Assembly: GCF_900177485.1 (NCBI RefSeq)
Contig: NZ_LT840186.1
Span: 496,001-560,000, forward strand
DNA: 64,000 nt
Direction of reading: 5' to 3'
From: Candidatus Pelagibacter sp. HIMB1321
GTDB taxonomy: Bacteria > Pseudomonadota > Alphaproteobacteria > Pelagibacterales > Pelagibacteraceae
Every line of letters begins with the position of its first letter. Positions within the stretch are counted from its first letter, which is position 1. This document shows positions 34,659-36,654 of this stretch, one piece after another. The notes below the pieces were generated by a model. It did no database searches. It was not told the origin of the DNA and worked only from the letters and a program-made list of their open reading frames with translations. Made by a program: the position numbers and the translations under genes.

Positions 34659-35117
34659 TTAATTTCTAACTAAGTTTTTACTATTTAATTTAGCAATATC
34701 TATAATTTTTGGATTTTGTACAGAATGAGGATGTTCATTACCTGAATATATTTTCAATTTTGTTAATTGTTTTTTTCCAAGTACTCCGCCTGGTAACATT
34801 CTTTTAACAGCTAACTTTAAAGCTTCACCAGGTTTTTTATTGGCTAATTTCTCAGGTGTGGTTTCTTTTATTCCACCAGGATGTCCAGTATGTCTATAAT
34901 ATTTCTTATTTTGAAATTTTTTTCCAGTAAATTTTATTTGTTCAATATTTTTTACTACCACAAAATCACCATCATCCATATGTGGTGTAAAGGTGGTTTT
35001 ATTTTTCCCTCTTATAATTTTAGATACTACTGTTGCTAATCTTCCAACTACAGCATTTTTAGCATCAATTTCATACCAGTTTGAGGTTAACTGATCTTTT
35101 TTTAAGAATTTTGTCAT
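34659..35117 (-). CDS. rplM: 50S ribosomal protein L13
   Basis: A 152-aa protein with typical L13 sequence: WYEIDAKNAVVGRLATVVSKIIRGK, FVVVKNIEQIKFTGKKFQNKKYYRHTGHPGG, and KRMLPGGVLGKKQLTKLKIY. It starts the leftward ribosomal-protein operon and diverges from the metY riboswitch region. A start on the only nearby ATG (35117) fits family length. Confidence 0.98.
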   Translation of the reverse strand: MTKFLKKDQLTSNWYEIDAKNAVVGRLATVVSKIIRGKNKTTFTPHMDDGDFVVVKNIEQIKFTGKKFQNKKYYRHTGHPGGIKETTPEKLANKKPGEALKLAVKRMLPGGVLGKKQLTKLKIYSGNEHPHSVQNPKIIDIAKLNSKNLVRN

Positions 35118-35127
35118 TGTGCCAGGA

Positions 35128-35155
35128 TTAATACTATTATTAAATTCAAAGTCAA
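35128..35155 (-). promoter_or_regulatory. Possible promoter for rplM-rpsI
   Basis: On the minus strand TTGACT (35150-35155) is followed after 16 bases by TATTAA (35128-35133). The implied start site is within about five bases of the rplM ATG, giving an almost leaderless message; no ribosome-binding sequence is visible before that ATG, which agrees. Motif resemblance only. Confidence 0.3.
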
Positions 35156-35197
35156 TTTGATAATTCTATTGCAATTAATTGCTTTTGTGATATCTCT

Positions 35198-35243
35198 TAA
35201 ATGCCGATTTGATCCTATTGCGGGCTTTAAACTGCTAAAATGG
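35198..35243 (+). ncRNA. SAM-II-like riboswitch aptamer (first of a tandem pair)
   Basis: The order of elements matches the SAM-II pseudoknot: short P1 (GCC 35203-35205 with GGC 35223-35225), a loop GATTTGATCCTATTGC (35206-35221) very close to the classic SAM-II loop, then TTTAAACTGCTAAAATGG (35226-35243) with the GCTAAAA element that pairs back (GC 35220-35221 with GC 35234-35235). P1 is weak with only three pairs. A five-T run follows at 35246-35250, but I cannot draw a strong terminator stem. Known members sense S-adenosylmethionine and repress methionine genes. Confidence 0.6.
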
Positions 35244-35260
35244 AATTTTTCATTACATAA

Positions 35261-35320
35261 TCGGTAGGTATTTGAACTGTATTGTGCACCTAACACAATG
35301 TTAAAGCACTAAAAAAGGAG
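35261..35320 (+). ncRNA. SAM-V-type riboswitch controlling metY
   Basis: P1 pairs TAGGT (35265-35269) with ACCTA (35288-35292). The loop ATTTGAACTGTATTGTGC (35270-35287) carries the SAM-II/V core, and the 3' strand TTAAAGCACTAAAAAAGGAG (35301-35320) closes the pseudoknot by GTGC (35284-35287) with GCAC (35306-35309). The AGGAG ribosome-binding site (35316-35320) follows the pseudoknot directly, six bases before the metY ATG, so ligand binding should hide it and stop translation. SAM-V was first described in Candidatus Pelagibacter ubique. Confidence 0.75.
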
Positions 35321-35325
35321 AAAAA

Positions 35326-36654
35326 ATGAGTACTAAAAGAAATAACCCTGAAACAATAGCAATTCATGGAGGCGATTACAGAAGTGATCCTTCAAGCAAT
35401 GCTGTAGCTGTCCCAATTTACAGAACTACATCATATCAATTTAATAGTACTGAACATGCAGCAAATTTGTTCGCACTTAAAGAATTTGGTAACATTTATA
35501 CGAGGATAATGAATCCCACTAACGATGTTCTTGAAAAAAGAATTGCAGCTTTAGATGGTGGTTTAGCATGCTTAACAGTTTCATCAGGTCAAACTGCTTC
35601 TACTTTTGCAATTTTAAATGTAGCTCAAGCAGGAGATAATATTGTTAGTTCAACCGATCTCTATGGAGGTACTGTATCATTGTTTACACATACATTAAGT
35701 AAACTTGGTATAGAGGTTAGATATGCTGACCCCTCTGATCCAAAAAACTTTGAAAAAGTTATTGACGAAAAAACAAGAGCTTTTTATGGTGAAACTTTAC
35801 CAAACCCTTATTTAAGAGTTTTTCCAATCAAAGAAGTTGCTGATATAGGTAAAAAATACAACATACCTTTAATTGTTGATAACACGGCAGCCCCGGTTAT
35901 TTGTAAGCCTCTTGAACATGGTGCAGCAGTTGTTGTCTATTCACTGACCAAATATATAGCTGGTCATGGAACAGTTATTGGTGGAGCTTTGGTTGATGGT
36001 GGTAATTTTGATTGGACAATAGATCCTAAAAGACAGCCATTGTATAATGAGCCTGATGCTAGTTATGGAGGTGTAGTTTGGGGTAAAGCTGTACCTGAGT
36101 TAACTGGTGCAAATGTTTCTTTTGCTGTTAGAGCAAGAGTAACTTTATTAAGAGATCTAGGATCTGCACTATCCCCTGATAATGCTTTTGGTGTGATTCA
36201 AGGTCTGGAAACAGTTGCATTGAGAATGAAACAACATTGTGAGAATGCAGCAAGAGTTGTTGAGTATCTTAAAAAGCATAAAGCAGTTTCTAAAGTAATT
36301 TATGCAACTGAACATGATGAAGAAATCTCTAACAGAGCTAAAAAGTACCTTCAAAATGGAAATGGTGCCCTAGTAGGTATTGAGTTAGCTGGAGGTATAG
36401 AGGCTGGTAAAAAATTTATTGAGTCTCTTAAAATGTTTTATCATGTAGCAAATATTGGTGATGCAAGAAGCCTTGCAATACACCCTGCTACCACCACTCA
36501 TAGTCAATTAACAGATAATGAGCTTGCTGCTGCTGGAGTTACACCTGGATATGTTAGATTATCAATAGGTATAGAGCATATTGATGATATTATTGAAGAT
36601 TTAGATCAAGCTTTAGATAAATCATTAAAAGGTAATTTAAAAGCTGTTAGCTAA
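35326..36654 (+). CDS. metY: O-acetylhomoserine sulfhydrylase (MetY)
   Basis: A 442-aa PLP enzyme of the Cys/Met metabolism family that makes homocysteine from an O-acyl-homoserine and sulfide. The start PETIAIHGGDYRSDP, the YTRIMNPTNDVLEKRIAALDGG segment and the length (MetY/OAH-sulfhydrylase class rather than about 390 aa for MetB/MetZ) support the call. The PLP lysine is in VYSLTKYIAGHGTVIGG, and the C-terminal GDARSLAIHPATTTHSQL is characteristic. It is preceded by two SAM-binding riboswitches, so end-product control is expected. It overlaps ctaA tail to tail by four bases. Confidence 0.93.
   Translation: MSTKRNNPETIAIHGGDYRSDPSSNAVAVPIYRTTSYQFNSTEHAANLFALKEFGNIYTRIMNPTNDVLEKRIAALDGGLACLTVSSGQTASTFAILNVAQAGDNIVSSTDLYGGTVSLFTHTLSKLGIEVRYADPSDPKNFEKVIDEKTRAFYGETLPNPYLRVFPIKEVADIGKKYNIPLIVDNTAAPVICKPLEHGAAVVVYSLTKYIAGHGTVIGGALVDGGNFDWTIDPKRQPLYNEPDASYGGVVWGKAVPELTGANVSFAVRARVTLLRDLGSALSPDNAFGVIQGLETVALRMKQHCENAARVVEYLKKHKAVSKVIYATEHDEEISNRAKKYLQNGNGALVGIELAGGIEAGKKFIESLKMFYHVANIGDARSLAIHPATTTHSQLTDNELAAAGVTPGYVRLSIGIEHIDDIIEDLDQALDKSLKGNLKAVS

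Follow-up and report, generated by a model that had tools for sequence, protein, structure and literature searches.

The stretch of DNA analysed here (the window, 64,000 nucleotides) belongs to a genome of the Ca. Pelagibacter group that consists of a single contig of 1,320,649 bases; the SAR11 bacteria are among the most abundant in the ocean. The leader of interest sits between the divergent genes metY and rplM, and all of the window features located below are on the forward strand. metY (35326-36654) encodes O-acetylhomoserine sulfhydrylase (TIGR01326, 581 bits; cut-off 495.1) and is preceded by two elements, a SAM-II-type and then a SAM-V aptamer. This is the order that a previous, sequence-only reading had proposed, and it stands on the Rfam match for SAM-V, and on conservation and compensatory changes for its SAM-II-type partner.

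The second element (35257-35323, extending to the ribosome-binding site) is a textbook SAM-V aptamer. In an Rfam search of the whole window it matches RF01826 at 78.2 bits against a gathering score of 41 (E 3.7e-11). TATTGTGC occupies 35280-35287; the GTGC at 35284-35287 pairs, as had been proposed, with GCAC at 35306-35309 and leads into the AGGAG ribosome-binding site, so that the pseudoknot helix adjoins the ribosome-binding site of a methionine gene. In the SAM-V class it is the SAM-bound form that hides the ribosome-binding site. The element is an ordinary member of the metY type (RF01826), heading the same gene as, and showing no difference from, the RNA of the crystal structure as far as the available text of PMC6061858 describes it; the construct crystallised there is 53 nt long and comprises SAM-V alone.

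The first element (35203-35245) has the layout of a SAM-II-type aptamer with a short P1. The three P1 pairs counted in the sequence-only reading are borne out, GCC (35203-35205) pairing with GGC (35223-35225). P2 joins GCG (35220-35222) to UGC (35233-35235), which opens the combined P2 3' strand and ligand strand UGCUAAAA (35233-35240), and P2a joins UCC (35213-35215) to GGA (35242-35244), a 3' helix typical of SAM-II (PMC2704228, in its available text). With TATTGC at 35216-35221 and GCTAAAA at 35234-35240, the same core layout does occur twice within the leader. The 21-base core of the first element has one match in the window at up to three mismatches and none in 100 shuffles.

Conservation was assessed in an alignment of 36 aptamers (A1). 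P1 is paired in 100% of its cells, with G-C replaced by A-U in 2 of 36 rows; seven rows (L161, L167, L190, L212, L223, L224 and L265) come from a core-pattern search that fixes part of P1. P2 is paired in 89.8% of cells, two of its pairs being invariant and the third formed in 25 of 36 rows, and P2a in 95.4%, two of the three P2a pairs having changed on both sides (in 3 and 4 of 36 rows); sliding the partner strand by one to three columns leaves only 19-49% of cells paired. Three pairs show two-sided change, a number that 36 of 500 shuffles also reach, but no shuffle of 500 reaches the nine two-sided cells or the covariation score. Compensatory changes of the kind that the sequence-only reading had suggested looking for in SAR11 leaders are thus present in P1 and P2a. 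(A decayed P1 was considered and rejected: three pairs are, as judged by comparing leaders, the norm of this SAM-II form.) GCUAAA is invariant. The SAM contacts of the bhmT SAM-II aptamer, given in the available text of PMC11508383 as U10, U11, A20, U21, U22, U46, A47 and A49, have as their counterparts, mapped by eye, U35208, U35209, A35217, U35218, U35219, U35236, A35237 and A35239, and in A1 each of these eight columns is either invariant or conserved to 90% or more.

Leaders were gathered by way of the metY protein (30 loci), of SAM-V matches in 101 genomes of the genus, and of exact core matches (at least 120 loci, L153-L272); the pattern used for the last prescribes some bases of P1 and of the 5' strand, and counts which include these loci are therefore biased at those bases. 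A SAM-II-like core precedes SAM-V in at least 178 distinct leaders (at least 116 at metY, 34 at mmuM, 10 at bhmT and 18 with no called gene). One empty row was dropped to leave 177, of which 159 lack a T8 run, and 156 remain once a metY leader with a long P1 and two wrongly parsed rows are taken out (all among the matches listed). The named relatives carrying the core are Pelagibacteraceae, Pelagibacterales or Pelagibacter (among the matches listed), and a viral collection holds no exact match to it.

A count that is independent of the core pattern comes from the Rfam SAM-V search alone, which yields 62 matches in the genus sample, with at least one in 44 of 101 genomes (two leaders, L038 and L125, were classified by eye). 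Among the 38 metY leaders, 31 have the short SAM-II element and no T8 run, four have SAM-V alone, one is cut by a contig end, and two have a long-P1 or degenerate SAM-II; at mmuM the short SAM-II without a T8 run is found in 14 of 14; the other ten matches are of the bhmT type, with a terminator (L094 has no called gene). R1, a model built for the short SAM-II form, has matches at E<=0.1 in 91 of the 147 genomes of the family sample and in 14 of the 27 of the window's genus. The element is common, not universal: in several metY leaders of other genera (L023, L027 and L030, for example) neither aptamer was found. Two further observations concern variants. In L097 and L125, both at metY, the SAM-II has a long P1 or is degenerate, and the terminator region looks decayed. 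Among other SAR11 genera, a lone short SAM-II precedes a metX-like gene (L294-L302, around 1500, by eye), in L297-L299 for example with a hairpin between a P2a-internal GAGGAA/AAGGAA motif and the start codon, which suggests translational control by SAM-II itself.

The genome that we take to be that of HTCC1062 (G017; its metY coordinate adjoins the region 1005679-1005890 of PMC2704228) has a short SAM-II element before SAM-V at metY (L008) and at mmuM (L134, in the stretch 732600-733200, minus strand, where P1 is changed to ACC/GGU). The available text of PMC2704228 gives HTCC1062 metY and mmuM with SAM-V only, and that of PMC5069961 places SAM-II at bhmT and metX. The claim that such a tandem was already known in Pelagibacter therefore holds for the bhmT leader, which is the SAM-II/SAM-V tandem described in the available portions of PMC2704228 and PMC11508383, and not for HTCC1062 metY, described with SAM-V alone. 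The SAM-II layer at metY and mmuM has apparently been overlooked, though Poiata et al. (2009) may have noted such cases.

The bhmT tandem of Pelagibacter ubique, as described in those portions, shares with the metY leader the order of aptamers, the SAM-contact bases and a SAM-V that adjoins the ribosome-binding site. It differs in that its P1 is long (GCGC...GCGC) and that it has a terminator, most of ten loci also having an antiterminator to GCUAAAGCG; the metY leader instead has a P1 of three pairs, no terminator, and a linker complementary to the 5' strand of the aptamer. The bi-mechanism tandem riboswitches of the review PMC9481103 likewise place two aptamers for one ligand in one leader, but in its available text an intrinsic terminator after SAM-II is their feature, always present in the original 120 tandems; none is recognised at metY here. 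The metY and mmuM tandems thus depart from the published statement that SAM-II always precedes a terminator.

The metY RNA probably begins with P1 itself. A possible extended -10 box (TGa-TATCTC, 35188-35196) would place +1 at G35203, and a weak candidate -35 box, picked by eye (TTGCAA, 35169-35174), lies 16 bases before the -10 hexamer; neither is listed by a scan for consensus promoters. Counted from the G of GCC, T-15 and G-14 are each present in 101, T-12 in 100 and A-11 in 104 of 112 metY leaders without a T8 run, and T at -12 and A at -11 in 29 each of 34 mmuM leaders (in both cases among the matches listed). A -10 box ends six bases before +1; the conserved -10-like spacing therefore argues that the first base of the mRNA is the first base of P1, which would account for a P1 of only three pairs.

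That there is no obvious terminator after the first aptamer was already remarked in the sequence-only reading, and no terminator-like site is found in 35100-35340. The T5 run (35246-35250) was considered as a terminator and rejected on T-run counts and the terminator scan, since no linker of the 156 tandem leaders that lack a T8 run has a T run longer than 6, and 142 of them have none longer than 4 (among the matches listed), so that the run is not a conserved terminator. Lacking the usual stop signal, the first aptamer therefore probably has an uncommon mode of action. Six metY-type loci of two other SAR11 genera (L031, L033, L126, L127, L132 and L293, the last cut short of SAM-V by a contig edge) have a strong terminator behind the short SAM-II (-11.0 to -14.2 kcal/mol) and can form a mutually exclusive antiterminator (-11.7 to -15.4 kcal/mol) that takes GCGG of P2/P1; at these loci the SAM-bound aptamer should, on the predicted folds, allow termination. 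The transcriptional control that had been ascribed to the first aptamer is accordingly upheld in those two genera and not in the window's own, with its short T runs and missing terminator.

These terminator-bearing loci, and the bhmT loci, in which a terminator with antiterminator also follows SAM-II, favour an arrangement in two levels at metY as well, SAM-II ending transcription by way of a weak terminator or Rho and SAM-V blocking translation, as has been proposed for bhmT. The mRNA levels of HTCC1062 point the same way: table 1 of PMC5069961, in the part available, lists a 7.14-fold rise of metY and a 6.08-fold rise of mmuM mRNA in sulfur-limited exponential cells (both genes are entered as SAM-V only). 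This rise fits an effect of the first aptamer at the mRNA level, but also the decay of untranslated mRNA, and both the absence of a terminator-like site from 35100-35340 and the shortness of the linker T runs speak against termination; we hold the two-level arrangement to be unlikely at this locus.

What the linker has instead is the motif AAUCGGU (35259-35265), complementary to GCCGAUU at 35203-35209, so that the GCC of P1 would also open an alternative, anti-aptamer helix. TCGG is present in 104 of 109 metY linkers (among the matches listed) as against 3.5% of base-shuffled linkers; the rest of the metY linker varies in length and letters. Motif and 5' strand form all seven pairs in 81 and six of seven in 40 of 122 metY or uncalled leaders (among the matches listed), as against 0.8% and 14.0% of base-shuffled linkers; these base shuffles, which favour the helix, ignore relatedness. 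Dinucleotide shuffles give p<=0.05 in only 16 of 96 metY and 7 of 26 mmuM linkers (among the matches listed), a weak null because such shuffles tend to rebuild TCGG. The motif goes with the first aptamer: TCGG is found in 77 of 80 tandem metY leaders and in none of five metY leaders that have SAM-V alone (six rows, one dropped for its short upstream part), with mean duplex energies of -9.7 and -4.4 kcal/mol, respectively. It is absent, by eye, from L019, a further metY leader with SAM-V alone.

In ligand-free predictions, the probability that base 2 of the leader pairs with TCGG averages 0.933 over the 104 metY leaders that have TCGG (among the matches listed). In the window itself the pair probabilities of the anti-aptamer helix are only 0.47-0.56 and its folding z-score is only -1.63; P2 and P2a stay intact in the window's ligand-free fold. 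The predicted near-zero probability of P1 overstates the case, because the folding program draws neither pseudoknot nor SAM. Twelve aligned leaders, the five terminator-bearing and more divergent rows being left out, show no two-sided change in this helix, whose support is conservation and one-sided changes. Two candidate compensatory changes were set aside: L126 (GCCAAUU) has more than one possible pairing register, and the SAM-V of L122 looks degenerate. (L122, an mmuM-type tandem with a GCU P1, is possibly a decaying copy.) The leader also shows, by eye, a short open reading frame (ATGGAATTTTTCATTACATAA), which was rejected as a feature because just 42 of the 159 leaders that lack a T8 run keep ATGGA (among the matches listed).

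At mmuM the complementarity is patchy, with six or more of seven pairs in 20 of 34 leaders (among the matches listed) as against 11.2% of shuffles, and with TCGG in 1 of 28 leaders. In many mmuM linkers (L105, L114 and L186, for example) a CCC could pair with the GGG common to P1 and P2, and mmuM linkers also show variable complementarity to GCCGAUUUGAUC. The motif should not be seen as just a substitute for the terminator, because complementary motifs also follow the terminators of the other genera, 3' of the terminator in five of five terminator-bearing leaders, with six or seven of seven pairs.

Motifs so placed can act only on read-through RNA, and folding without SAM is predicted to give the long helix; the same pairing might therefore be a lock-out rather than a switch, SAM-II being a relic or locked by the linker in the finished RNA, with SAM-V as the sole regulator. 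A precedent is at hand in the bhmT tandem, whose SAM-II, in the full-length RNA in vitro, is unresponsive to SAM on account of the linker (PMC11508383, available text). On the other hand, a relic would hardly be expected to have kept, across genera and at two genes, the bases that contact SAM together with a P1 and a P2a that show compensatory changes, and we consider this account doubtful. The silencing of the bhmT SAM-II by its linker may, by analogy, be another view of the same behaviour.

The assignment of the first element to SAM-II has to contend with its Rfam scores. RF01726 gives 17.3 bits over 72 bases (E 0.17; gathering score 44), RF00521 gives 12.8 bits against a cut-off of 36, and nothing upstream of SAM-V in the leader matches any Rfam model above its cut-off. 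The Rfam comparison proposed with the sequence-only reading has thus come out positive for SAM-V (78.2 bits) and negative for SAM-II (17.3 against 44). The negative half does not discriminate here, because the published bhmT SAM-II of HTCC1062 is itself unlisted by Rfam even at E<=1 and RF01726 scores above its cut-off in none of the 101 genus genomes: the Rfam SAM-II models have a blind spot in SAR11. (The best sub-threshold RF01726 match in the window's genome lies outside the window, at G000:C1:1280928-1280987, with 28.9 bits.) R1, which counts the window sequence among its members, scores the window at 71.1 bits (E 4.8e-14). Of the SAM-II elements at ten bhmT loci it finds four (E 7.6e-5 to 4.6e-3, the best at 30.5 bits), lists four others at E 0.12 (L096), 0.95 (L135, of HTCC1062), 2.5 (L100) and 8.1 (L044), leaves those of L099 and L111 unlisted, and gives E 0.18-0.96 for eight loci selected with RF01726; SAM-V elements score at most 15.3 bits.

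Compared with the SAM-II of RF00521 and RF01726, the first element has in common the H-type pseudoknot, the SAM-contact bases, P2 and the 3' helix P2a; it differs in scoring far below their cut-offs and in its minimal P1, probably placed at the transcript's first base. Since the two classes share a core and the SAM-V model scores the element, at permissive settings, nearly as high as SAM-II (14.1 and 17.3 bits, both weak), it might instead be a second SAM-V-like aptamer, or one for another ligand; but P2a, absent or minimal in SAM-V, is present and covaries, the SAM-contact bases are kept, and R1 ranks the better bhmT SAM-II elements above SAM-V elements, so that we think this highly improbable. 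Chance resemblance, to which the Rfam E-values (0.17 to 1.6) taken alone would point, is rejected as negligible in view of an element that well over 100 distinct metY and mmuM leaders carry ahead of SAM-V, with compensatory changes in A1. Compensatory changes, conservation and the purpose-built model together argue that the first element is real; on sequence criteria we take it to be a genuine SAM-II-type variant, one that presumably binds SAM.

The reading that we prefer, at a probability of roughly one half, is that the metY leader carries a terminator-less, strand-exchange SAM-II that acts together with SAM-V on the same mRNA. In the absence of SAM, the first seven bases of the message, GCCGAUU, would pair with AAUCGGU just ahead of SAM-V; if formed in cells, this helix would dismantle P1 and part of the SAM-II pocket, P2 and P2a still being able to form. 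Once SAM is bound, the 5' end would be held by P1 and the pseudoknot, leaving the linker free, and SAM-V with SAM bound would hide the ribosome-binding site. The output would act on that same message, most likely jointly with SAM-V through translation and mRNA decay, and two SAM binding events could make the shut-off of metY sharper. A more specific version can be offered only tentatively, at less than even odds: the first bases of the mRNA would shuttle, pairing now in the SAM-II stem and now with a linker strand right next to SAM-V, occupancy of the first aptamer setting the folding of the second, protection of the 5' end, or both.

Shuttling of this kind, if it occurs, would mean that the two aptamers are wired into a single post-initiation output rather than being two independent switches. 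The occurrence of one and the same aptamer with and without a terminator provides a natural comparison set for the apparently silent SAM-II domain of tandem riboswitches. For SAR11 itself, metY and mmuM are two of the three methionine-making genes that sulfur limitation induces in HTCC1062, and to both a SAM-II layer is now added, which offers a testable reason why their mRNA, and not only their protein, rises.
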